A DNA stretch of 64,000 nucleotides from Echinostoma caproni (lineage: Eukaryota > Platyhelminthes > Trematoda > Plagiorchiida > Echinostomatidae): NCBI GenBank assembly GCA_900618425.1, contig UZAN01040169.1, positions 15,176 to 79,175 on the forward strand. The letters run 5' to 3'. Positions 1,441-62,368 of this stretch are shown here, in pieces. Made by a program: the position numbers and the translations under genes. Within the stretch, counting starts at the first letter, position 1; each line of letters opens with the position of its first letter. The notes below the pieces were generated by a model. That model saw nothing but the letters and a program-made list of their open reading frames with translations, had not been told where the DNA came from and searched no databases.

Positions 1441-1577
1441 GGAGCGTGAACTGAAACGTTAGGGAGCACCGGATAGCTGTTTCGACCTGGTTAGGTCTCA
1501 TCAGCAGTGCGAATCCATCAACCCGGGACCTCGAAGGTAGAACGCAAACATGCTACCCACTTGGCCACTGGGCAACC
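1441..1577 (-). mobile_element. tRNA-derived SINE, type 2 unit, carrying a hammerhead motif
   Basis: Read on the minus strand, the unit starts at about 1577 with a tRNA-like head. Its A-box-like stretch is TGGCCAAGTGG and a degenerate B-box-like stretch is GGGTTGATGGATTC. A hammerhead motif follows (1510-1466), then a tail with TTTCAGTTCACG. The copy at 23535-23670 shares the head, the ribozyme and this tail, which defines a family. The unit directly abuts a different SINE (1578-1808) in the same orientation, so the two form a composite or tandem insertion. The 3' limit is approximate. Confidence 0.7.
1466..1510 (-). ncRNA. Minimal hammerhead ribozyme motif (type 2 SINE)
   Basis: On the minus strand the order is: stem I strand GCACTG; core CTGATGAG; stem II ACCT, loop AACC, AGGT; core CGAAAC; short stem III region AGCTATC; stem I strand CGGTGC. 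Stem I pairs over 6 bp with one G-U. Stem II pairs perfectly and both conserved core blocks are intact. The predicted cleavage triplet is ATC. Stem III is the weak point: the A15.1-U16.1 pair is present but the next pair is a C-A mismatch. Minimal hammerheads with very short stem III are known from flatworm SINE-like repeats and Penelope-like elements, often acting as dimers. Activity here is inferred, not shown. Confidence 0.75.
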
Positions 1578-1808
1578 GATCAGGCCGTTCATCCTTTTAA
1601 TAATTTAAGCTGACTATCCTTCGGACTTCAACTTCACGCACAATCCTCAGTTAACCGTTTCAACCATACACTCGGAAGCACTAGACTCGAGCTTCGCTCT
1701 TATTAGAGCTCATCAGTAGTGCATATCCACCGTCCTGTACGGGATTTGAACTCCGAACCCATCGCATGGAAGGCGTGTGCGTTACCGCTGCACCAACCAC
1801 CTCATGCC
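1578..1808 (-). mobile_element. tRNA-derived SINE, type 1 unit, carrying a hammerhead motif
   Basis: On the minus strand the head starts near 1808. It has an A-box-like stretch (TGGTGCAGCGG) and a clear B-box-like stretch (GAGTTCAAATCCCG), as in a tRNA-derived pol III promoter. A hammerhead motif follows at 1722-1678. The body contains CTTCCGAGTGTATG, GTGCGTGAAGTTGAAGTCCG and a T/A-rich end. The same body occurs on the plus strand at 15636-15775 and, more diverged, on the minus strand at 50630-50825. It sits in tandem with the type 2 unit to its left. Confidence 0.8.
1678..1722 (-). ncRNA. Minimal hammerhead ribozyme motif (type 1 SINE), best copy
   Basis: On the minus strand: GCACTA (stem I); CTGATGAG (core); CTCT, AATA, AGAG (4-bp stem II with 4-nt loop); CGAAGC (core); TCGA loop; then GTC and TAGTGC (stem I return). 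Stem I pairs perfectly over 6 bp and stem II over 4 bp. GTC is the canonical cleavage triplet, placing the predicted cut between 1684 and 1683. The only departure from consensus is GAAG in place of GAAA, giving a G-U instead of an A-U pair at 15.1/16.1. That may lower activity. Stem III is two base pairs closed by a 4-nt loop, as in other flatworm minimal hammerheads. Confidence 0.8.
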
Positions 1809-3899: not shown

Positions 3900-5228
3900 A
3901 GGCGGACGGAGACGAGGAATTAGAGAAAACAAATAGGATGAAGGGGATATGAGTCGAAGGAGGAAAATGTTTGTGTGCGTCGGTTAAAAGAGATTTGGAC
4001 GGTACAAGTTGAGACCGGAAATACCTCTATTACTTTTGGTTAGTCTGGATCAGATTGTCCCGGGTGGGTTGAAAACCAGTGAAGCGAATTTCGGATCTAT
4101 GATTGGAAAACAAAAGTGTAGATGATGCTTGAACATATGATTGACATGGAAACCCCTTGGGAAATGGACAGTTCCGCCCGAGATAGCATTAAACAAGACC
4201 TGAACTAACCAATCATTGCGTGTGTATGTGTGACAGATTTTGAAAACGCTGGTACACTGCAAACGGCCCCAATGACTGATGTGTGTAAAAACAACCCCAG
4301 AGAGAATAGGCATTTGAAACAATGCAATCTGTTCTATTGTAGCAGTCGAAAGCCTTATGTATCTGTTCATTTCAAGAATTTGCATTGTTCACGTCGCACC
4401 TGAGTTTGTAACCTTTCAATTCCCCTTGAGTAAAGTACACCTTTTCTATTTACTGTTGAAGCATAATCTAAAGGGGCATTATTGAGAATTCTCACGCTCA
4501 AAATCCCATAGTTCGTTTCCCTTCGAACACATACATCTCCGTTACCTACCACGATGACGGGGCCACAAGAATTGGGCAAAGTTTGCTTATCTCATTGCCA
4601 GAGAATGTTTAATCGTTTTATTTGAAGTACTTGTTGTCGACAGTGAAGTACAGTATATAATATAGAACGCTTTTCTACCGAACCACGTTGGGAGCGAGAT
4701 AATTTTGAACAAGTTGGAACTGTTGACCGCCGCTTTATTCATTCAGATGCGGTTGTTTCATCCTTGTGTTACGAATAGTGGGACCGCAGGTAACCAGTTT
4801 GGCTAGTGCACATTTTACGGGAACCCATTTGCTTCGTATCATGTAAGTAGCGGATTTTCCTCGCATGTATTTTGGAGAAAAAATCACTTTGTTCCGTTGC
4901 AATCAATCGGAGGATAGAAATCCATGGAATCAATGAATTTATTTAGATGGGACATCTAAAAAGCAAAAAGCCAAACGGAATTAGAATCATTAATCCGTCT
5001 AGCATCCAGTATTATTCATCAATTTTTCCGGTCTTTTAGGCATTGAGTTCATCACGATAGACTGCTGTCGAAGCATTGGTTCTTTGACTTGTAGTTGCCT
5101 ATCTGACTTCTTGATCATTTAAAGTGAGACCATGATTCCTCAATTCTTCCAATCAACCACACACTCGAATCAATACACATAATGAATACATTCAAATCAA
5201 TAACAAAGCTGAGCCCAAACCCTCGGAG
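3900..5228. other. Noncoding or unresolved stretch
   Basis: I see no secure feature. A minus-strand open frame at about 4579-4367 has a protein-like composition (PLDYASTVNRKG) but no convincing acceptor, and I could not tie it to a family. If the FN3 gene model is right, this lies within its introns. Confidence 0.3.
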
Positions 5229-5720
5229 ATGATAGCACCGAAATGCAACATCACCATTCAACTCCTTTTCAAATGTGATGATGTAGGCCAACTCATACGA
5301 AGACGGTTGGTGGCGACTGTAGCTCGCACATATTTCGCTGCGAATCCTGTCGTTCGCGTCACTACAACCCAGAATCCGAAGACCTTGGTGAAATCACCGC
5401 TCCTTCTGTCCGCCAAATCGCATGTAATCTATCAATTTCAATGTGGGTACGGAGCTACCTTCGTGGGCAGAACAGAGAGGCGGCTGCGTACCCGAGTGGC
5501 TGAACACATACTGGTATGGATCAAACGCGAGCGGGTGAGATTGAGCGCTACACAAACAACCAGGCCATCAAGCCAGTCTCACAGAACACCTTCGTCAGCA
5601 ATCGTTCGCCATCTGCTGCAGTCTGACCATCAAGCTGATCATGGGACTTTGATCCGGACTGCTTACCCAACCCAGAATGGATGGCTGCTAAAATTTGCAG
5701 AGGTCATGGCAAGGCCATAG
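5229..5720 (+). pseudogene. Penelope-like element, C-terminal GIY-YIG-type endonuclease region
   Basis: The open frame of about 163 codons matches the C-terminal part of Penelope-like retroelement proteins. Markers are VIYQFQCGYG followed by FVGRTERRLRTRVAEH, the YVG/R..EH arrangement typical of the GIY-YIG nuclease fold in these elements. Further on, SSAIVRHLLQSDHQADHGTL is the usual distal segment. The expected CxCG of the family reads CGYG here, so a cysteine of the zinc-binding pair is lost. No reverse transcriptase is attached upstream, so this is a 5'-truncated copy. It lies opposite to the FN3 gene, probably inside one of its introns. The initiating Met is arbitrary. Confidence 0.75.
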
Positions 5721-11474: not shown

Positions 11475-12105
11475 CCGCTTTACGGTGCAGAGACTTGGCC
11501 ACTACGGAAATAGGATACAAATAGATCATCGGTTTTTGAACACCGCTGTCTGCGTCGCATTACACGAATCTGGTGGGGTAACCGGACGAGCAATGCTGAG
11601 GTTAGGAGTAGTTTAGGTAGTCGCGGTAGTCCACTGGAGCAGGTAGTCCACCTCCACAGATTACGTTGGTTGGGGTATGTGTTACGCACGTCTTGGTCCA
11701 ACCAATAGATAGGTTGCCACGGCGAGCGATGTTTGCCGAGGCAGGTGGGGGTTGGAAAAGAGTCAAGGGCAGCTAAACAAAGACCTGGCATGAGGGTATA
11801 AAAACCCTAACCAGGAGACTAGGTCACACAGGCTCCGTTAGACTCCCTGGATGAGAACATTGGGATTATGGTCACCGAGGGTTAGATACACCGAGTGATA
11901 TGGCTGTGTGTCGCAAACAGTGGCGCTCGTGCATCCACTCATTATTCCCCTAACACCATTCTGTATGAATTCTCCATCTTCCGCTTGAGTTTCCTTTCAA
12001 TATTCCAATCTTCTGCTCTTTTATCCAAATGGGGCACCAGAAGACATCAACTAAGACCGGCACACGAATGTGCATGGTTAATGGTTGTAAAAACTGAACC
12101 GAGCT
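11475..12105 (+). pseudogene. RTE-like LINE, C-terminus of the reverse transcriptase ORF plus 3' UTR
   Basis: Reading across several frameshifts on the plus strand gives the hallmark C-terminal region of trematode RTE-like elements: VFEHRCLRRI.RIWW, TSNAEVRS, LHRLRWLGYVLR, RLPRRAMFAEAG, TKTWHEGI, LPGWGPRDY. It is followed at about 12015-12105 by a 3' UTR block (AGACATCAACTAAGACCGG, then GTGCATGGTTAATGGTTG). The same block recurs at 29150-29240, 44640-44730 (-) and 49815-50350. The copy is 5'-truncated and broken, lies in an FN3-gene intron, and is antisense to that gene. Confidence 0.85.
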
Positions 12106-15635: not shown

Positions 15636-15775
15636 ATCTGAGTACACGACGGATGAGCTCTAATAAGAACGAAACTCGAATCTATTGCTTCCGAGTGTAT
15701 GTTTGAATCGATGAACTGAGGATTATGCGTGAAGGTGAAGTCCGAAGGAAAGTCAGTTCAAATCAATAAATATTT
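15636..15775 (+). mobile_element. tRNA-derived SINE type 1, 5'-truncated copy with hammerhead
   Basis: The body matches the unit at 1578-1808 in reverse orientation: GATGAGCTCTAATAAGA, CTTCCGAGTGTATG, GTCCGAAGGA and an A/T-rich end. The tRNA-like head is absent, so the copy starts at or just before the ribozyme. Confidence 0.78.
15644..15688 (+). ncRNA. Hammerhead ribozyme motif, degraded stem I
   Basis: Core 1 reads CGGATGAG instead of CTGATGAG. Stem II is CTCT, AATA, AGAA with one mismatch. Core 2 is the consensus CGAAAC, followed by loop TCGA and triplet ATC. The 45-nt length equals that of the other copies. The CUGA core change and poor stem I pairing suggest it is inactive. It is useful because it preserves the ancestral GAAAC that the 1678-1722 copy lacks. 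Confidence 0.65.
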
Positions 15776-22800: not shown

Positions 22801-23534
22801 TTGATAGCCCTAGTTCCTAGTTTGTCCCCTCTTAGGACTGAACAGCGGATACTTTTGACCATCGGGTTCACACGCTCTATTGCGTTCAGCACAGAGACAG
22901 TCAGCAATGCTTTGAGCAAGGTCATGCACGGCATACGACTGTGTTGCATGTGTGTGTGTTTGCATCTTACCGTTCGCGTGTTGTAACCAAAAAAGCTGAT
23001 GCAAAAAATTGGCATATGCATCGATCATGTGTGCCGAAAGAACGGTTTCCATTTGACCGGCTCACATCTCAATCTCGTATGTCCAAAATGCCTTTTCATT
23101 GTCAAGACCCTGGATTCCGGTGTTTATTGACCGGTTCATACGCAGTGTGGCGCATCTAAATTAAAAGGTAGCTGACAATAATAACTTCTGTTCCATCGTC
23201 CTATCTAGCCTCATAATGTTCCAGATTAGATGAGAATTTGAACACAGAATATATGCACTCAGAAACTGTTGTTAGACGACAGCGCAGCATGTATAGCGGT
23301 CATGCCGGGTTAGACTTATTGATCAGTTGAGGATGAATTCATTTGCGGCAACAGCTAGCTTCGGATCTCGATAGTTCGATTGAGGTTCGAATTAAAAGAC
23401 GGAACGTGTGATTCAGTGTGTTTTCCGTTTATCTTTTGTGAGTGCTGTGATGATAGAGTGATGAGGTTTACAACGAGCTTGCAGATCCGGGTTGTTCCAG
23501 TTCGTGCAAAGACAACATTAAAAAAAAACGTTTG

Positions 23535-23670
23535 ATGAGCTACCCCGTGGTTAAACGGGGTAGAACTCTTGCGTAAGTTCTCGAATTGAGGGATTAGCAC
23601 TGCTGATGAGACACAGTTAGGTCAAAACATTTGCACAGTGCCTCCCAGCCCTTCAGTTCACGTCTCGTTT
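23535..23670 (+). mobile_element. tRNA-derived SINE, type 2 unit, carrying a hammerhead motif
   Basis: It is homologous to 1441-1577 along its length: the diverged tRNA-like head, GGATT(A/C)GCACTGCTGATGAG, and the tail TTCAGTTCACG. The head contains a perfect 9-bp hairpin, CTACCCCGT with ACGGGGTAG (23540-23563). An A run precedes the unit at about 23520-23528. Confidence 0.7.
23597..23641 (+). ncRNA. Hammerhead ribozyme motif, perfect stem I but damaged core
   Basis: Stem I GCACTG pairs perfectly with CAGTGC, and CTGATGAG is intact. Stem II (ACAC / AGGT) no longer pairs well. The second core reads CAAAAC instead of CGAAAC, and the triplet before stem I is GCA. It is probably inactive, but the 45-nt layout is unmistakable. 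Confidence 0.68.
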
Positions 23671-23813
23671 GCTTTGTACGCCACGAAAATTAAGGCCAGT
23701 CGGTGGATGTGCTATTACGTGTCCACGTAACACAAAAAGCAAGCCTTTTCCGTTATACATTATATTCTGGAATTCAGTGATAATAGTAGCCGTCACCAAC
23801 CGAAGACCGGTCC

Positions 23814-28805: not shown

Positions 28806-29149
28806 CTAGATTGTTGCAATATGAGAAATGACCTACACCTCCTCGCACAAGGAATATTGATCTTCCGGTAGCAAATCATTTTCGCTTTACCGTAAGCTTT
28901 GGATACCACATTTGATGGGACATACAAGTGCATACATGTGTATTGTCAATCTTGGGTATGCATCAAGTTTACATCACCGATAAGCTGATGCAGGGAAAGA
29001 GAGACATGGAACTTCATACTTGTGACGAGAGTATTGTTGGGAGCGAAGTTGCACGTAACCCAATGACCAAACGAGCAAAATGCGACACTGGCACGTGAAG
29101 CCGTGCGGTAAAAATAATTACTTTTAACTTTCCTGTCTTCTCCTATTCT

Positions 29150-29240
29150 TCATACAAATGGACAGCCAAAAGACAGCAACCAAAACTGGCGCACGAAAGT
29201 GCATGGTTAATGGTTGCACGAACTGAAAAATGAAACTGAG
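29150..29240 (+). mobile_element. RTE-like LINE 3' end
   Basis: It contains AAAAGACAGCAACCAAAACTGG and GTGCATGGTTAATGGTTG, matching the 3' UTR block after the LINE ORF at 12015-12105 and 50275-50350. No coding part remains. Confidence 0.75.
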
Positions 29241-36019: not shown

Positions 36020-36158
36020 CTGTTTTTATTGAAAATTTTAGATTGGGTATCAGCGGCAAGCACGCACATGTAGGCAATGCAGTATCCTGCATAGAACAAG
36101 GAAAATAGTCTAAACAATTGCTGGTACTGAACTGGATGGTATGCGTCCATCTCGAATT
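36020..36158 (-). CDS. Weak candidate exon with a hydrophobic segment
   Basis: It has an acceptor-like GAATCGTTTCCAG and a donor-like AAACAG then GTGTAT. The open phase reads EMDAYHPVQYQQLF followed by a likely membrane helix, FSLFYAGYCIAYMCVLAA. A different frame and the plus strand are also open, so the call is tentative. No family is recognised. Confidence 0.28.
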
Positions 36159-39100
36159 CTGGAAACGATTCCAAGTTGGGTCGATGAACTCGCACCACTG
36201 ATAAAAGACATCCAGGTTGAAACAGTCTTTCAGTTTACGTTTTCCGTAATCTATTTCAACAAACTTCATCACCGAACAACAGGTCTTTGGAACTTTGTGG
36301 TCCGAGCCTTCTGCAGTTCATTACACAAATATGTGAAATGAAAAAGAAATTATTACCATCAATGTCAGTAATAATACAGTCAGATGAATAGCACCAATCA
36401 TCCAACAGTTCCAAGTCTCATTGAATTCGCTTAGTCGATCCGATCGAATTTCTTCTCTTCAACGGTAGGATGTAAACTCGTGCATATATTTACGGTTTCG
36501 TTCAGTTTCTTTTTCACTCCTTTTGGATGTTTCATTTTATGCGATTGGTCAAGAAATCTTTGTACCCCGTGCAACCCAAAAAACAATGCATTTATCACCG
36601 GTAGTGATCTATAGAAAGAACGTTTAACCAGTTCATTCGGTAGCCTTGCATCATATACACAACAGCTATACAGTATCTAACCACAGCGAACCACACCGTT
36701 TTCATTGTTTCTCACAGTTAGCCATCCGGAATGGCCCAACCACTCCAGAAACGAACGAAGAACATCAATTAGGGTGACAGACATTCTTGAACTGATCGGT
36801 TGCAAAGACAAATGTTGTTCATGCCGTGAAACGCGCCGTTTTTCTCAATTGCTCTTCAGACAGACAGGTCAAGCTGAGTCGGTCTGAACAAGCAGTTTCC
36901 TTCACAGCCAGCTTAATAATAGTGCCAAACTCACGAGACCTGCAGGTTCTCTGAACTGCCGATCAGATGCAGAATCTTGCCGTTCCGAAAAAGTCAATAC
37001 CTTAACTAATTAAATACGTACCAAGTATCGGAAGTTTTTTGATTTAGTTTGGTTCTGAAAATATCATCATCCTGTAAATGAAGATTGAATAGAGAAGAGG
37101 TGTTCAAAACACACCAGAATTTTTTATGTATTGATTTGTATCATCAAACATGTTGCCAAACTACCAGTATTCAAACTGACTTATTGTTTATCGAAAAACA
37201 ATCTGGTGTGAAGGCCAACAACAGACTCCACTTAAAAACTAATTCGGCCATCATTCATCAGTTCTGCATAAAATATTCGGGTCCCATCTGGGACTAGACA
37301 CGCAAACCTCTAACTGGAGGCTAAAACCCACACCTGTGTGATTGTGCTGTGAACAGCGATGGGAACAGCTTTGCGATGTTCGCTTGGCGTACGGATCAAT
37401 AGAACAATCAAATACACACACAAAGTACGTTAGTTTTATCCAGTTGTGTTCCGTTGTCTAGTGATGAACTGTTTAACATTTCCCGATAAACGTTTCTTTT
37501 CAAACGTCTTATCTACTTTGAACAGTGCATCTATGTTGTCAATAGTGACAGCCTTAATTGTTAGGTTTCAGTTAATTGGCTGAGCTAATCGACCCCGCTG
37601 GTTTGGAAATCGTAGGGCACAGTTTCATCTGATTCTTTCGAACCAGTCTAAGTTAAGAAGTAATCAATGGTTCATCTTTAAGGTTAGTTCTAGACAATTA
37701 ACTATTTCAATTGTGTATTTTCTTCAAGACCCCATTCCATGTTTTTCGATGAGAACTAAGAAACTCTCACCCTTGGTGCTCGCGATGAAATCCTCCTTGC
37801 AAAGCTAGCAGTGTCCTGAACAACTTGGATCCGTATAGGGACTCAAACTGCGAAACTGCCAGTAGACAGCTGAAACCCTTGTATCTAAGATGACCGACAT
37901 GCACGCACATATGACCATGCAAACCGTATAAGTTCTTCCGTTACTTTCAAACGAGTTCACGGACAAGAGAAACTGTGTATTTTTGTTTAGCATTTATCTT
38001 TCGTCTATCGGAAGTTCTTTTTTCTATCTTATTTCTGATGCACTGACGAAGAATAGGACAGATGTTCAGTGATCTTTTATATTGACCTTCACTCAACACT
38101 CGTTCGATAAGCATAGAATACAAGGGACCTCATACAATAACCTGGTTATGCCTCGGAGACGAGATAAATTGATGGATTTGGCTCAACCAAGCATTCACCA
38201 TGATGCATTTTACAGTCTGTCTGTTGTGGTACGTGGACCAGACGATGCCTTGATTGGTGCGCTAATTGACAGGTACTCTAATTGACCTATCAGTACTGAA
38301 CCCGAGCATTACGGTTGTATTGCGCTGTCTTAACCAGCGAATATGGCCATGTGATGTTTGTACATCACGTGATTGACAGTGCTGATCAAAACATTTAACC
38401 CAACACTTCTAAAGGCAGAGGTCAAGTTGTGTTTTTTCGTTCGCTAATCCTGTTTTGATTCAGTTTGGTGTCATAGGATGGAGGGGGAAGAACGCTAGGC
38501 AGCCGTCCGGTGTTTTGTAGCGCCTGTATCGTTGCCAAGACATACATCAGCTTATCATCCCCCATAATAACGCTACACTTACGATCAAAATTTTGCCATA
38601 TAGTGAACCATTTAATTGAACTCTTTGTGCTCGGACTGTACGTTGGCACGGAACCATACAACCGATTTATTTGTCACAACCACATTCGAATTGTTTTTGA
38701 GTATAATCGCATTAAATGCGATAGCACAGTAAGTGGATATTAGTCAAACAATTTGGGCCGTTCGTGGAAACTTACATTTGTAAGAATACCTGATCTGGTT
38801 TGTTTTATTTAATCGGCAGTTATCGTCCAAACTAACATTTCACACGGATTTCTATTGTATTTATCTGTGTTCAAACTTTACGAATACAAATTATTCATTC
38901 GAGTAAACTATCGACAAATCGCATGCAAATCAGATCAGTACAACCATATTCGAGTTACATTACTGTGTTAATCTACGGAAGGGGAAAAAGCACGTTTGAC
39001 AAACCGCTCAAACGTAGTCTGCTTTTATTTTATTGATAGGTGTGAATTGTGAAAACAGATGTCATCCTTTAGCGCTCCTCGATCGGTTCCATTTTTCATG

Positions 39101-43600: not shown

Positions 43601-44639
43601 GTCTTTCGCGACCGATAGCTCCTTTTGTGGCTGTGAACAACTCGAGGTCTTTCAACCTTTTCTCACTCTTCATTTATATATCTCTAGTTAAAACTGTTAG
43701 ACAAGCTTTTCAATTGAACTTGTGAGTAGTTTTGAGGAGTAAATTGTTATCGCTTTTGACTGCGAACGTCTAAAATTAGAGCATTAAGTTATACATATAC
43801 TTGAGATGTACCATACTCAGTTTTTGCTCCCACTGGAGCTCACTGGTTCATCCGACGTTTGAACCCCATAATGAACGATCCCGAGTGTATAATGAACTGG
43901 AGGAACTGCGAAAGGTGCCTGAAAATGTAATTTCCAAGGTTGAAAGTAAAAAACGCATCTTATCACTCACTGCTACTCATGGGTAATTGTTGATTTAAAT
44001 TTATATAATGTGATATCTTACGGCGTCTGAATATAAAGTACGTTCTTTCAAGAGTCGAAGAAAGCAGTTGATTCGAATTCTCCCTTATTCCATTAATTGT
44101 CAGCTGTAGGTTTCAGTTATGTTATTCCCTAAGCGATGATAGTACTCTATTTTCCCGGTAGTTTGCAGCCCTCTCACCTACCCTCCTCTTTTCTCTGATC
44201 TCTTTATTGTGCAATGTTCACGCCTTTTCAATTATTTTGAATCACAATTTGTTTACGGTCATCAACGGTCACGAACAGATCACCGAAAACTTGAATGTAG
44301 TCATGCGGTTGCTGATTCCACCCACCCGTCCAAGCATCCGTACCGGCATGTCTAATCGAGTTTGTCGAACAAAAAAGGCGTGCTATTTAGGATGCGTGTG
44401 TAGCACACAAACACAGATACGCAGCATGTATTCGGTGATTCGTGTGCCACAATCTTATTACAAAAAATTACGACCCCATTTTCGGTGTTTTGCCAAATCC
44501 TGATGAACCATCACGGGACAGTTAGTCGATGGATCTGTGTGTACCGGTCCCCATATTTCACCGATGAGACCGGATGTGGTAGAACTCATGTAGAGACACA
44601 TTTCAAACACTTTATCAGCCGTCCAGTTTATCAGACTTG
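43601..44639. other. Noncoding or unresolved stretch
   Basis: At 43801-43986 (+) two overlapping frames look protein-like (one reads YNELEELRKVPENVISK). I could not choose between them or find a family. Confidence 0.25.
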
Positions 44640-44730
44640 GGAACAAAAGCGTGTTCAGTTCAGGGTCAGTTTTTACAACTATTAACCATGCATTTTTGTG
44701 CACCGGTTTTGGTTGCTGTCCTTTGATCAC
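44640..44730 (-). mobile_element. RTE-like LINE 3' end
   Basis: On the minus strand AAAGGACAGCAACCAAAACC, then GTGCA and AATGCATGGTTAATAGTTG, match the LINE 3' UTR block at 12015-12105 and 29150-29240. No coding part is present. Confidence 0.7.
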
Positions 44731-45229
44731 CCAGTTAGATGAAAAAGCGTAAGGAAGATTGGGATGTTGAGAGCTGAGTCAAAGAGAAGATATAGAATTC
44801 ACATAAAGTGGGATTGAAAGAATATTAAGTAGATTCAAGAACGCCATTGCTTGTGACACTCAGCCATATCACTCAGCTTCCCTAATTGCCGGTTACCCCG
44901 ATCTCGCACTCCCCATTCGGGGAGAGTGGTTAAGGGCTGGGTCAACGCAATCTCGTGCCAATATTTGACACTTTGAAGATGCAAAACGCAAACATTGCTA
45001 CACCAGCATTCAAATCTTGCAACTTACTTGGATTTTCACTTAGCTGTACAAAAGCGTCTGCATATTCCAGATCAGACAGTCTACCACCCGAAAGTAAATT
45101 AATGCATCTATCCTGGCGTGAGGATAAGGCTGTTGTACAAACATAGTGAACTCGGGTAAAAAAGTGCAGTAATCTCAGTCTAGGCTTCGGCTATCAGTAT
45201 AATGGCAATATTGAAATAAACTTTTCGGG

Positions 45230-49814: not shown

Positions 49815-50350
49815 CCGGTATGCTAGCATTGGGGCAGCCGGACGAGCAATGCTGAGCTTAGGCGTGGAGTTTTGGGTAACCGCGGTCGCCCACTGGAGTA
49901 AGTGGTCAACCACCATAGATTTCGTTGGTTGGAGTATGTGTTACGCATATCATCAAATAGATTGCCACCGCGAGAGTTGTTTGCCTAGGCAGATAGTGGG
50001 GGGAAAACCCAAGGGTGGTCAACCCAAGACCTGGCACGGGGGTACGAAATCCCTAACCGAGGGACTGGGTCACATGGGTCCCGTTAGGCTCCCTGGCTGG
50101 CGACCTCAGGATGACTGTAACCGATGGTTAGAGACACTGAGTAATATGGCTGAGTATCGGAAACAGTGATGTTTGTGCATCTTCTCAATTTCTTCGCATT
50201 CTTAGACTACTGAAATTTTTCATTTTCTGTTATACTGCTTTTTCAACTTTCCAGTCTTTCTCCTACTGTTCATTCAAATTGGCAGCAAAAAGACAGACAA
50301 CCAAACTGCCGCGCGAAGGTGTATGAGTAATGGCTGTACAAACTCAACTG
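49815..50350 (+). pseudogene. RTE-like LINE, C-terminus of ORF plus 3' UTR
   Basis: A second copy of the element at 11475-12105: GRAMLSLGV and RWLEYV-type readings, KTWHGGTKSLTEGLGHMG, VRLPGWRPQDD, RWLETLSNMAEYRKQ. It ends in the same 3' UTR block at about 50275-50350. One long frame (49849-50169) is open and other parts are frameshifted. It is 5'-truncated. Confidence 0.85.
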
Positions 50351-50629
50351 AACTGATGCTGGGAATCGTTAGATACGCTTTACTGTGTAACCCAAGGGAG
50401 TTGCATAACAGGGCATGATAGTTTATTGTTTCAAATGACTTCGTGTTCAAACTGCGAGAGTACCATTTCTCGAAGATTTCCATCAGACCAGAACCACACA
50501 ATTCTTAACCAAACCTGATTCCCTCGGCTACCCATAGCATAATCTGTGATCAGATTAGTACAGTGACTTTGCCGTCAATCAAGGGTCCAGTACAATGAAT
50601 TTCCCACCAAGTATTTACTCCTCATGTCA

Positions 50630-50825
50630 TTTAGACTACAACTTCAAGCACTATCCTCAATATTTTATAATCCACAGTACACTTGGAAAACAACACAACT
50701 GAGTTTCACATCCCTGCTGTACCTCAACGGTGAAGGCTGACTATCGGTCCATCCAACCTCGAATTCCTCGGATGTGAAAGTTGTATGCGTTGCCACTGTG
50801 AGAAGCTGTCCATGACGGGGTTGGA
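50630..50825 (-). mobile_element. tRNA-derived SINE type 1, old diverged copy
   Basis: Minus-strand order matches the unit at 1578-1808: a head with GTGGCAACGCATAC and GGAATTCGAGGTTGG, then a degraded hammerhead zone that retains GAAACTCAG, then TTCCAAGTGTAC, GAGGATAGTGCTTGAAGTTG. The first core block (CTGATGAG) is gone. This places the ribozyme inside the ancestral SINE. Confidence 0.6.
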
Positions 50826-51184: not shown

Positions 51185-52285
51185 CTTCAGTGGTGACCAA
51201 GGTTGCATAATGATGTTGTTAAAGTGTGTTATCTGTGTGAAACGTGTGCCTTGATTAGAAATCGCGTCCCATCGTTAGGAGCATCTTTGTAGCCCATGGT
51301 TGTCACGCACCCGGGGTAACGAGTTGAAATCGAAATAATGGGCCCTCTACTGATGATATGTGAATGTACCCGATATATACTAGTCTTGATAGACTATTTC
51401 ACGAAATCGACTGAGGCTATTGCCATTTGGTTCCAGAGAGCGAAAACTGTCGCGAATGTATTCTTCCGTGAATTAGTGAGCCGATATAAGGCTCTGCAAG
51501 TCCTACATTTTGAATCAGGTGCGGCTTTGGAACGCAAGCTGTTACGCGAAGTGTCTCGCTTCCTCGGTGTAAAACGAACTCGGACGAACCATAACCATCC
51601 TCAAAGTAATGGGCTGGTAGAACGCACCAACCGATCAAAAATGGGCGTCCTCCAAGATTTCTGCAAAACCCTTGATGCAGATCGCTGAGATGAAACGTTT
51701 CCGCCATGAATGCTCGTATATAAAGGTACTGACCAAACTCGTGCAACATCCTGATTTTAATTACGCTGTTTCCTCTCAATGCTTCTTACCGTAGTGCCAC
51801 TGGGTACAGTCCTGCATTCTGGACTCTGGGACATGAGTTACGTCCACCTGTAGAGATAGAGATGCCACCGTTGCCAATCGCCGTAGAAACCACGCTAGTA
51901 TACATGCGAGACCATAACCAACGTCTTCAGCAAGCCCTCCAGCACGTCCGTGAACACTCCGATCGAAGATAAGATCAGCAGAAACGGACTTGCGATTGTG
52001 TAGTTCACGTAAATCTATATAACGTGGGAGACTGTTCATGGTTACATCGAACAAGGCCACCGCAAGGTAGTTCCACCAAGTTCCATTCACGAAACTCTGA
52101 TGAAGTCTTTTTTCAACGCTCATTGAGCCCCTATACGATCCATGAAATCGGCTCTCGCCAAAACGAAACACATTTCAATCGGTTGAAGCCTTTTTGCTTA
52201 TCCAGAGACACCCCGGAAACCGAAATAGAACTCATCCAATCTGCGGTCACTGGTTATGCAGGAATACGGCGATTAACCAGGGTTT
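51185..52285 (+). pseudogene. Ty3/gypsy retrotransposon integrase, decayed
   Basis: From about 51190 the readings show the end of the zinc-binding region (WWPRLHNDVVKVC, CETCALIRNRVP). The catalytic core follows (GPLLMICECTRYILVLIDYF, LHFESGAALE, NHNHPQSNGLVERTNRS), and then the C-terminal region (SATGYSPAFWTLGHELR, VEIEMPPLPIAVE, LQQALQHVREHSDRR, DCSWLHRTRPPQG). The first catalytic Asp reads Glu or Ile (EIEIMG) and the second reads Glu (HFESG); only the Glu in LVERTNR remains. Stops occur at DRW and CML positions. A 62-bp foreign segment interrupts the frame at 51724-51785. LTRs are not evident. Confidence 0.88.
51724..51785 (+). repeat. 62-bp segment inserted in the gypsy integrase, shared with 20257-20318
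   Basis: The integrase reading is collinear on both sides. It is DET..PP.MLV before the segment and SATGYSPAF after it. The segment itself has no integrase counterpart and matches 20257-20318. Confidence 0.72.
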
Positions 52286-55200
52286 GAAACAGCTACCTAT
52301 AAATCTGTATATTCATTGCAATACGCAGCTTCATGACGATCAGTTAGTGACTAGATGAATTCAGTGAATAGGATACCTAGCCGTGTTGTTAATCCGCTCT
52401 AAGTTCACACTGCATTGATCGATTGGGGAAGCCTAATCGTTATGAAGAGAACACGCTGGAAGGGCGACCAGTCGAATGTGCAAATCAAATTATTTCCGTG
52501 TCCATGTCTTGTGGTGTCCGGGAAGAGTCAACTTCAATTACAATAGACTACATTGGTCACGTGAGACAAACTATAGACAAATCGAGCTGTTGGTACGCAA
52601 GATAGATATCTCACAAAATTCAAAGGCAAACGAGGTTTCGGAAGGTTTCAGTCAGCAGCTTTATAATACAATGAGCAAAATATATATGGCACTTTATCGT
52701 TACGCGACCAAAGGCCGTAATAGCACGACTTTTGAAATACATAAATGGAATAGGCCTAGTAACCTAATCGGTTTCAAATAAACGTAACCATCAGTATTCA
52801 ACGCGACAAGGGCATTGAAGAATTTAGACTTACTGAAACGTTTCGACGGTTCAATGACCAGGGCACTAGAACCATAAAAGAGGTGAAAAGGTGATAAGAT
52901 TAGCACCCTGGATCGTCGACCACATCAGGCCATAAAACACAACTGTATACACACATACACATCACCAAACACACAGACACACGCATACACACACTTTCTT
53001 GTGCATACGCACACGCAGAGGGGAACCCGGTGATCGATGAAGTCAGCATCGAATACACACCCGAAGCTATGAAGGCCCAAAGAGGCCGATAATTTATCTC
53101 AAGGACACTGGTGGTACCAACTGTTGTCTGCTTTTTTTCTATTGTTGTGACGCAACACACCGGATAATCAGGTTAAGCAGCTCATATTTTGTCTATTATT
53201 CCAAATACACAGCTTACATTTGGCGTTCAACGGAGCGACATTTCACGTCAATTTTGTATTTTGTGTTGTTTTTTCTCTCTCCCAACACCTACCTCATTTC
53301 TTCGTTTCGCATGGTTTCAGCCCGTCCGACAAATAAGTACTAAACATATGTCCCATCTCACATAAAAACACTGTAAAAGTTGTCTATCAATGCATATATC
53401 TCTTGACGTAACCATTTAATGGATAGTGCGCATAAAGAGCTAAATTTGAAATTTAACGGCATTTTGTGAGGGAAACCGACGAGGTGTCAATACGACTTTC
53501 TCTCAGGAATCTGCAAAGAAATATCGTGCATAAATCAATGCTGCTACTGAGATCACTTCAAATAATAACTCGACACATACATCTTGTACATCCCAACAAC
53601 CCAACATACAACACCCGAATTCCCGACACTGACAATTACACCATGGACAGAACGAAGACAAAGCCGTGCGTTATATTATTTAGAATGGTGAACGCAAGTT
53701 GGGGAATGTAAAGAATCGGTGTACATAAGGCTACGCCTACTTTGGTGCATTTTCTAAAAAGAAACATGGACTGCACATTGAAGTCACTGACGATTGTTGC
53801 ACACTTGTTCGGGAATGGGTATAGGTTAGATACCGATTCGATTTGACCATCCTTTACCACGACCCAGGAAACACAAATCTAGGGCTGATCAGATTCATAT
53901 GTCTGCAACAACCAAGACAGTTATCATCCGTTTCTTTTTTAAGTCAGAATTGCACTCAAAACACTTGCTCATGCACCCAAACTTCCCAGACCCAAAATGA
54001 ACAATATCACGTCTGAGCGTTGCGATAAGCCAAATCAGACGCTTATGTAACCGGTTCTTATCTGAAGGAGAAAACCGAAATCCAATTTGTCCTTACCCCA
54101 ACCCTATGCTATAATTATATGACCTGGACTGTATAACTCCAACACAAAACTCCCTCCTTATTTTCGTAAATGAATGTTTGTAATGACTTCAGAATGAACT
54201 TACCGAAAACACATGTACACCCATGATCTGTGTTCTGATGATACTTAATTTACTGTAGGGCACTCTGATGAATTAAATTCCGCTTATTTCCTTTTTACAA
54301 AACATTTTGCTTTCTAATGAGTTCGTTAGACATGAACGTTAACACTGGGCACGGCAGTTGCCAAATTCGATTCAAAGTAGATCGGGTCTATTTGATATTT
54401 AACTGATTAGCCCCTGTTTTTATCGGCTCAGGCCAAACGGTAATTTAGAGTTGCAAATTAGGCATTGGTCGATCATAAACGTGAATCTCTTATCTTATCC
54501 ACATACTAACGAGACTACCCCCATTCTTCCGAATTGCAATAAAAGAAAACAAAAGGCGTTACTCTCCGTTAGTCTCCGAGCGGACACTGTCGTTCTAAGA
54601 TTATGCTTGTGATAAAGTAGATATTCATATGCAATTCTTTCGAAAACAAGGCGCAAAATACTATGTCCAAATCGGGTTACATTTATAGTTAACATGGGAT
54701 AGCAGTGTAATGTGTGTTCGTTATCTGTTGTGCAATCACGTGATTCAACAGTGCAGATTTTGAGCATGTTTATGTATCGAACCAGTTTGTGTTGTGCAAT
54801 GGTTCACATAGATCGCATCCAGACAGCACAGACATGCTAGTTTTCAGCTTTAATTAAAAACACGCAATCCTGCTGTACTTTGGTGTAACGTTTCTTTACT
54901 ACTGTTGATCAGTATGCGTGATATGGTCAATATCTAACCATCGCATGTTCTGCGTGTGACTTGGTGACAAGGCAGATTGTTCCGTCGGATTATTGATCGG
55001 TTGAGGCTCGGTGAGGCCATGTTGTCCCGAAGTGAACGCTGGAAGGTCATCATTCCGTGCACCTGATCAGTTCTGATCGATGTCGGTCAATGTGAGCTTT
55101 TGCTTGATCTGTTTTTGTGTACGATACACACACGGAGTAGTTTTAGTAGTGTGCTGAGTAAAATAATGAGGATAAGATCGCTGTCACAGAAAATGACTGT

Positions 55201-61788: not shown

Positions 61789-62034
61789 TTGTATGGCGAT
61801 GGTGAAAAGTTCAGTAGCCTCGGTGGGATTTGAACCCACGCATGGATGCCGCCTATGCTTTGTACGCGCACGCTCTACCAGCTGAGCCACAAGGCCATAC
61901 TGATAGAACTGATCTTTTCACATTCGAATTACCCATCCTACTTACAGAGGTATATAACGTCCACCAGTTAGCATGTAAGCTGACTTCCCCGACCGGTTTT
62001 CCTTAGAATTCACCGGAGTCCACTGAATGAACAT
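61789..62034 (-). repeat. Left arm (246 bp) of inverted repeat containing a tRNA-like gene
   Basis: It is the reverse complement of 62123-62368 with scattered mismatches. The outer part carries the tRNA-like sequence and the inner part carries CAGTGGACTCCGGTGAATTC and GCTTACATGCTAACTGGTGG. The spacer is 88 bp. Confidence 0.9.
61816..61896 (-). tRNA. tRNA-like sequence, probably a repeat-borne pseudo-tRNA
   Basis: It is 81 nt on the minus strand. The acceptor stem GGCCTTG pairs with CGAGGCT (7 bp with G-U). The D arm is GCTC, AGCTGGTA, GAGC, and the T arm GTGGG, TTCAAAT, CCCAC is perfect. Both pol III internal boxes are near consensus. The interval between D and T arms is 32 nt, longer than in a class I tRNA, and the anticodon stem pairs poorly. 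The best loop, GTACAAA, would give an ACA anticodon, which is atypical. No amino acid is assigned. Confidence 0.65.
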
Positions 62035-62122
62035 ATAAGACATGGTTAATTATGCAAATGGATATTTGGTAGATTTGAAGTTTGTATCGTCATACAATAC
62101 AATACAATTAACCTTGTATTAG

Positions 62123-62368
62123 ATGTTCATTCAGTGGACTCCGGTGAATTCTAAGGAATACCGCTCGGAGCAGTTAGCTTACATGCTAACTGGTGGATGT
62201 CATATGTCTCTGTAAGTTGGATGGGTAATTCGAATGTGAATAGATCAGCGCTATCGGGGCGGCCTCGTGGCTCAGCTGGTAGAGCGTGCGTGTACAAAGC
62301 ATAGGCGGCGTCCATGCGTGGGTTCGAATCCTACCGAGGATACGGAACTTTTCACAATCGCCATACAA
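62123..62368 (+). repeat. Right arm (246 bp) of inverted repeat containing a tRNA-like gene
   Basis: It is the mirror of 61789-62034. Both arms have the same internal order and the same length, and the tRNA-like part points outward in each. Confidence 0.9.
62261..62341 (+). tRNA. tRNA-like sequence, probably a repeat-borne pseudo-tRNA
   Basis: It is 81 nt, the partner of the copy at 61816-61896. The acceptor stem is GGCCTCG / CGAGGAT with a terminal mismatch. The D arm is intact, and the T arm GTGGG, TTCGAAT, CCTAC has one mismatch. The loop GTACAAA and the long variable region are the same. The B box GGTTCGAATCC is a perfect consensus. The shared unusual features in both copies argue for a tRNA-derived repeat rather than two functional tRNA genes. 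Confidence 0.62.

Follow-up and report, generated by a model that had tools for sequence, protein, structure and literature searches.

Two hammerhead-bearing SINE-like repeats of different families in tandem, very probably neighbours by chance

Two repeat units of different families, each with its own hammerhead ribozyme motif, lie head to tail on the minus strand of the window, the whole stretch of 64,000 nucleotides that was analysed. The type 1 unit (1595-1815, 5' limit approximate) consists of a region with an A and a B box, hammerhead 1 (HHR1, 1678-1722) and a tail ending in TTAAATTATTAAAA. Its last bases, AAATTATTAAAA, directly adjoin a spacer of about 17 nt (1578-1594, limits approximate), which is followed by the type 2 unit (1420-1577), made up of an A box without a B box, hammerhead 2 (HHR2, 1466-1510) and a tail. 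The outer limits of both units are approximate. Both hammerheads are type I motifs of 45 nt, and cmscan confirmed them at the places and on the strand that had been given in a preliminary description of this DNA (1722-1678 and 1510-1466, minus strand). Stems I and II, which had been claimed to be paired, are complete in both motifs (6/6 and 5/5, respectively), and the distance between the motifs was counted as 167 nt instead of 168 nt. Cleavage is predicted between 1684 and 1683 in HHR1 and between 1472 and 1471 in HHR2, and the 5' ends thus predicted, 1683 and 1471, are the same as those proposed before. From these two predicted positions a hypothetical double-cleavage product of 212 nt (1472-1683, minus strand) would result.

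To characterize the state of the two ribozymes, the window was subjected to a covariance search, with E values that refer to the whole window. HHR2 matched Rfam model RF00163 (Hammerhead_1) with 36.1 bits, above the gathering score of 34 (E 2.2e-5). HHR1 was detected in the permissive search only, where RF02275 (HH9) was its best Rfam model; this match (32.7 bits, E 2.4e-4) lies below the gathering score of 52. A descriptor demanding both cores, at least 5/6 pairs in stem I and at least 4/5 pairs in stem II, which was composed after the motifs had been seen, found exactly HHR1 and HHR2 in the window and had no match in 200 first-order Markov windows. HHR2 has the features of a type I hammerhead, namely the CUGANGA and GAAA cores (CUGAUGA and GAAA, both intact), stems I and II, an NUH cleavage triplet and a score above Rfam gathering; its stem III consists of an A-U pair followed by a C.A mismatch at the second pair. 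In HHR1 the CUGANGA core (CUGAUGA), stems I and II and the NUH triplet are present, and GAAG is observed in place of the required GAAA. Stem III of HHR1 is the palindromic GCUCGAGU, in which the first pair is G.U. Judged from these positions, HHR1 is a hammerhead by descent that has been damaged, and it is probably impaired, either weak or dead. For comparison, wild-type ribozymes were described as exceeding the tested mutants at 15.1 and 16.1 in activity by a factor of at least 10, while a natural variant with U15.1-A16.1 was still weakly cleaving; a G.U pair as in HHR1 is not named in the relevant part of that article (PMC3088659). HHR2, with its cores intact, may still be able to cut alone. 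In the optimal fold of the HHR2 monomer the core is paired with the motif's own stem III segment (-16.4 vs -6.3 kcal/mol for the hammerhead fold), energies that serve as a rough guide, as the optimum of the RF00163 control is likewise not a hammerhead.

Both families recur in the window, with two further copies each, which is the interspersed occurrence that marks a SINE. The second type 1 copy (15644-15770, plus strand) is truncated at its 5' end and has a broken core (CGGAUGA); HHR1 together with the tail aligns to 15645-15770 of the plus strand with 87% identity. A decayed type 1 copy of nearly full length was found at 50627-50798 on the minus strand, where the alignment to type 1 is weak (score 49, against 31 at most among the best scores of six shuffled windows). 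For type 2, a second copy lies at 23517-23687 (plus strand, score 107) and a decayed one at 36098-36354 (plus strand, weak alignment, outer limits uncertain). The core of the former is broken as well: in its hammerhead at 23597, AAAA replaces GAAA and the cleavage triplet reads GCA. All four of these copies are unpaired, and the focal HHR1 and HHR2 are the best preserved of the four hammerhead motifs in the window, which could hint at youth or at selection.

These four motifs served to build a covariance model (model R1) that describes stems I and II and places no constraint on stem III; searched against the window, it gave seven matches up to E 10. Besides the four training motifs (52-61 bits), a fifth match was obtained at 43849-43808 of the minus strand (19 bits, E 0.0052). 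Its flank aligns to type 1 slightly better than any of 200 shuffles (67.5 compared to 57 at most), and 43808-43849 is probably the remnant of another type 1 hammerhead copy. The remaining two matches are at chance level (53074-53089, E 4.8; 36192-36236, 8.9 bits, E 5.5), the latter falling within the decayed type 2 copy. When the two focal units were compared with each other, likeness was confined to the hammerhead and its short flanks (score 41 vs a maximum of 29 in 200 shuffles), and no similarity was detected between their 5' parts (14) or their tails (10; maximum of 200 shuffles 25 in each case). Exact hammerhead patterns had no match in collections of genome contigs and viral contigs, an outcome of little weight, as by design these hold no animal genomes. 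A looser pattern occurred in one viral contig (L001), which has no Rfam match at the gathering score.

The window contains further repeats and coding-like stretches. Another interspersed repeat is present in at least four copies (12020-12098, 29149-29227 and 50269-50347 on the plus strand, 44663-44753 inverted), and their likeness to the one at 12020 is 67-80%. An inverted repeat pair at 61789-62051 and 62106-62368 (89% over 263 nt, 54 nt apart) includes a tRNA-like segment, which ARAGORN names tRNA-Cys (aca) and which the Rfam tRNA model scores with 47.7 and 35.9 bits. On the plus strand, 51320-51685 possibly holds a retroelement integrase remnant (Pfam rve, E 0.0022, below the cut-off), and 5136-5720 is an open frame with a stretch that by eye resembles a GIY-YIG endonuclease and has no Pfam match.

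It was previously proposed that both units are tRNA-SINEs in tandem. The tandem of two hammerhead-bearing repeat families stands, while a tRNA match was found in neither unit by ARAGORN or by the Rfam tRNA model, including a search of 461 bases up to E 10, and this part of the proposal is less well supported. A pattern scan detected an exact A box (1795-1785, TGGTGCAGCGG) and, 33 nt further on, an exact B box (1751-1743, GTTCAAATC) in type 1 on the minus strand. Since such pairs occur about 1.1 times per shuffled window, compared to four in the real one, the boxes would be weak evidence of a pol III head if taken alone. An origin of type 1 from a tRNA is plausible. In type 2 the same scan found an exact A box (1567-1557) and no B box, which has possibly decayed, and a tRNA-derived origin of this unit is unproven. 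We consider SINE-like a fair name for both. Between 1860 and 1301 the minus strand has a single TTTT, at 1367-1364 and hence 3' of both units, where pol III might stop; because none occurs from 1860 down to 1368, a single pol III transcript could cross both units.

A convincing target-site duplication was not found: in three comparisons of flanks, the best score was reached by 38, 10 and 27 of 40 shuffles. A match of 13/19 between the type 1 flanks, noted by eye, scored below the best listed matches and not above shuffles. Old copies lose their target-site duplications, and the absence is expected, yet it is no proof of two insertion events. The 5' flanks of the focal type 2 unit and of the copy at 23517 are alike, but their score was reached by 381 of 2000 shuffles, and a shared flank was rejected as not beyond chance.

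To understand if the two ribozymes could act together, as had been suggested, their stem III/loop III segments were compared. In some weak type I hammerheads two motifs act as a dimer, held together by stem III/loop III pairing, and in hammerheads of the repeat type this segment is mostly palindromic, as far as described in PMC3088659 and PMC7229834. Self-match of the segment is 8/8 for HHR1, 8/8 for the RF00163 consensus and 6/8 for HHR2, whereas the mixed pair of HHR1 and HHR2 matches at only 3/8. An HHR1/HHR2 dimer is disfavoured because the two segments do not match, and it was rejected on its palindromes. With RNAcofold, HHR1 formed a full double hammerhead with itself (stem I 6/6 twice, stem III 8/8), and none was formed by HHR2 with itself or by the mixed pair. 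Gains were -9.3 kcal/mol for HHR1 and for RF00163 with themselves, -2.8 for HHR2 with itself and -1.6 for HHR1 with HHR2. The window copies of HHR1 and HHR2 gained -7.7 and -3.5 kcal/mol with themselves, HHR2 and HHR1 gained -8.5 and -3.4 with their own copies, and the other three cross-family combinations gave -3.2, 0.0 and 0.0. However, the optimum of the RF00163 consensus homodimer, which served as control, contains 0/8 stem III pairs despite its gain of 9.3 kcal/mol, and because of this failure little weight was given to the cofolding and the argument rests on the palindrome counts. Claimed ribozyme pairs can be judged simply by comparing their stem III palindromes, and where these differ in a mixed pair, a double hammerhead is unlikely.

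Release of a defined RNA, which was part of the same suggestion, is unlikely from the focal copy because HHR1 is altered in its conserved GAAA. Folding of the 452 nt from 1815 to 1364 gave a lowest-energy structure in which HHR2 has stem I 5/6 and stem II 5/5 and HHR1 has stem II 5/5 and stem I 0/6. In the ensemble, pair probabilities of stem I were 0.35-0.60 for HHR1 and 0.91-0.92 for HHR2, with 0.07 for the last pair of the latter. The 5' strand of HHR1 did not pair with the 3' strand of HHR2 in the ensemble fold; the 5' strand of HHR2 and the 3' strand of HHR1 match in a hybrid stem I of 6/6.

The arrangement itself was compared with what chance would give. Within about 600 nt downstream of the further type 1 copies a type 2 unit was found in 0/2 cases, and within 600 nt upstream of the further type 2 copies a type 1 unit was found in 0/2; the seven partner scores of 18-25 lie below the best scores of shuffled whole windows (26-37, six shuffles per unit). 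Near the remnant at 43.8 kb there was no type 2 match among those listed by the whole-window scan, which is its sole coverage. From the densities in the window (two to three type 1 and three type 2 copies in 62,863 known bases, focal pair included), same-strand pairs of type 1 followed by type 2 with a gap of up to 30 nt are expected 0.0015-0.0022 times per window, or 24-35 times per Gb. Without the focal pair in the densities the expectation is 0.0005-0.001 per window and 8-16 pairs per Gb, to be read with the window having been chosen for the focal pair from an unstated number of windows. That such a pair exists somewhere is unsurprising, but in a single 64-kb window it is a rare event. As to the idea that the mixed-family arrangement is special, no other copy found in the window is paired, and in a large genome pairs of this sort are expected by chance. 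Among the papers listed by literature searches we saw none on a tandem of two distinct hammerhead SINE families; units adjacent by accident would in any case scarcely be published.

Taken together, we consider it very probable that two old insertions of different hammerhead SINE-like families, made independently of each other, came to lie next to each other by chance and do not co-operate. What counts against chance is the expectation of only about 0.0005-0.002 such pairs in one given 64-kb window, together with the better preservation of the two focal ribozymes and the lack of a target-site duplication that would prove two insertions. Three other readings were weighed against it. An A/T-rich type 1 tail could be a preferred target of type 2, so that pairs would be enriched without any joint function. 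SINE insertion into A-rich tails is common, and type 1 ends in its tail sequence right before the spacer; with the flank of the 23517 copy no better than shuffles and no target-site duplication, this reading is very improbable. Type 1 and type 2 could also have been amplified as one dimeric SINE, of which the focal pair would be one copy. Dimeric SINEs occur in other animals, and the same strand, the head-to-tail order and the short spacer would agree with such a composite, yet 0/2 and 0/2 of the further window copies are paired and no second pair was found in the window, which makes it very improbable.

That the pair is functional, with both hammerheads cutting one transcript into a chimeric RNA of 212 nt (type 1 tail and type 2 head) that is perhaps circularised, is highly improbable in our view. 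The absence of TTTT between the units would allow it, the hybrid stem I could close the circle, 212 nt falls within the range of animal retrozyme RNAs of 170-400 nt as given in PMC7229834, and HHR2 would need no partner if it resembles those minimal hammerheads of Schistosoma mansoni W elements that cut without one, according to PMC8490949. Against it stand the GAAG of HHR1, the mismatch between the two stem III segments, the absence of stem I from HHR1 in the fold of lowest energy, though not throughout the ensemble, and, as a rough guide, the non-hammerhead optimum of the HHR2 monomer. An extension of this idea is that mixed tandems serve as a route of module exchange between hammerhead SINE families: readthrough from type 1 into type 2, double cleavage and ligation would yield a chimeric circle of 212 nt, its ends joined at a hybrid hammerhead made of HHR2 and the 3' strand of HHR1. 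We regard this as extremely improbable; if true, such circles could found new families, and the restriction of likeness to the hammerhead and short flanks would be explained. More generally, mixed pairs that released chimeric circles would provide a route to new retroelement families.

According to the preferred reading of chance neighbours, the two families would have inserted independently and in the same direction, and their distance of about 17 nt would have arisen by chance. The ribozyme of a live copy would most likely trim the RNA of its own family, with a transcript through one or more copies being cut at the hammerhead and stem III being completed either by a single motif or by two motifs that belong to that family. 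The unit-length RNA left by cleavage could be circularised and reverse transcribed into DNA, a cycle that has been proposed for animal retrozymes. At the focal locus HHR1 and HHR2 would not complete each other, and no specific chimeric product is expected. We infer the independence of the insertions, the pol III transcription and the retrozyme-like life cycle; the motifs, the two families, the broken core positions, the stem III mismatch and the solitary state of the other copies are direct observations.

Repeats of this kind are known from schistosomes. SINE-like elements with hammerheads, Sm-alpha and Sj-alpha, were described as abundant in schistosomes, with an estimate of more than 10,000 copies for Sm-alpha and with about 38,500 candidates in S. 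mansoni and 5,000 in S. japonicum obtained by blastn with the motif (PMC2770079). Like these, both families reported here are short repeats scattered as separate copies, with a single type I hammerhead in each unit (PMC2770079, PMC8490949), and RF00163 matches HHR2; the likeness to Sm-alpha rests on description, the aligned sequence being the RF00163 hammerhead consensus only. Unlike Sm-alpha and Sj-alpha, two families are present here that share nothing but the hammerhead and short flanks. Some W elements of S. mansoni were reported to carry minimal hammerheads that have a very short stem III and are active, and others to carry inactive ones; three of five tested cleaved in vitro without a partner, and the two inactive ones were mutated in the core or at the cleavage site (PMC8490949). 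By description, W25.2 and W36.2 resemble HHR1 and HHR2 as minimal hammerheads with very short stem III, but they are satellite-like W elements, unlike the pair studied here, and W36.2 itself resembles Sm-alpha (PMC8490949). The hammerheads of Penelope-like elements, according to PMC7761336, are likewise minimal type I motifs that may act as dimers; among the seven ORFs scanned in the window there was no match to a Penelope-type protein. Animal retrozymes were described as tandem repeats with type I hammerheads, from which RNAs of about 170-400 nt arise in both linear and circular form (PMC7229834, PMC7761336). The head-to-tail type I hammerheads recall the metazoan non-LTR retrozymes, for which repeats of about 150-450 bp were reported, compared to 212 bp here (PMC7229834, PMC7761336). 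In contrast to these, where one unit is repeated in tandem, the two units at this locus show no relation to each other beyond the hammerhead and its short flanks, and type 1 has A and B boxes, whereas retrozymes are said to lack promoters (PMC7761336). Most likely, the units belong to the kind of repeat known since the work on schistosome Sm-alpha, to which two hammerhead-bearing families are hereby added.
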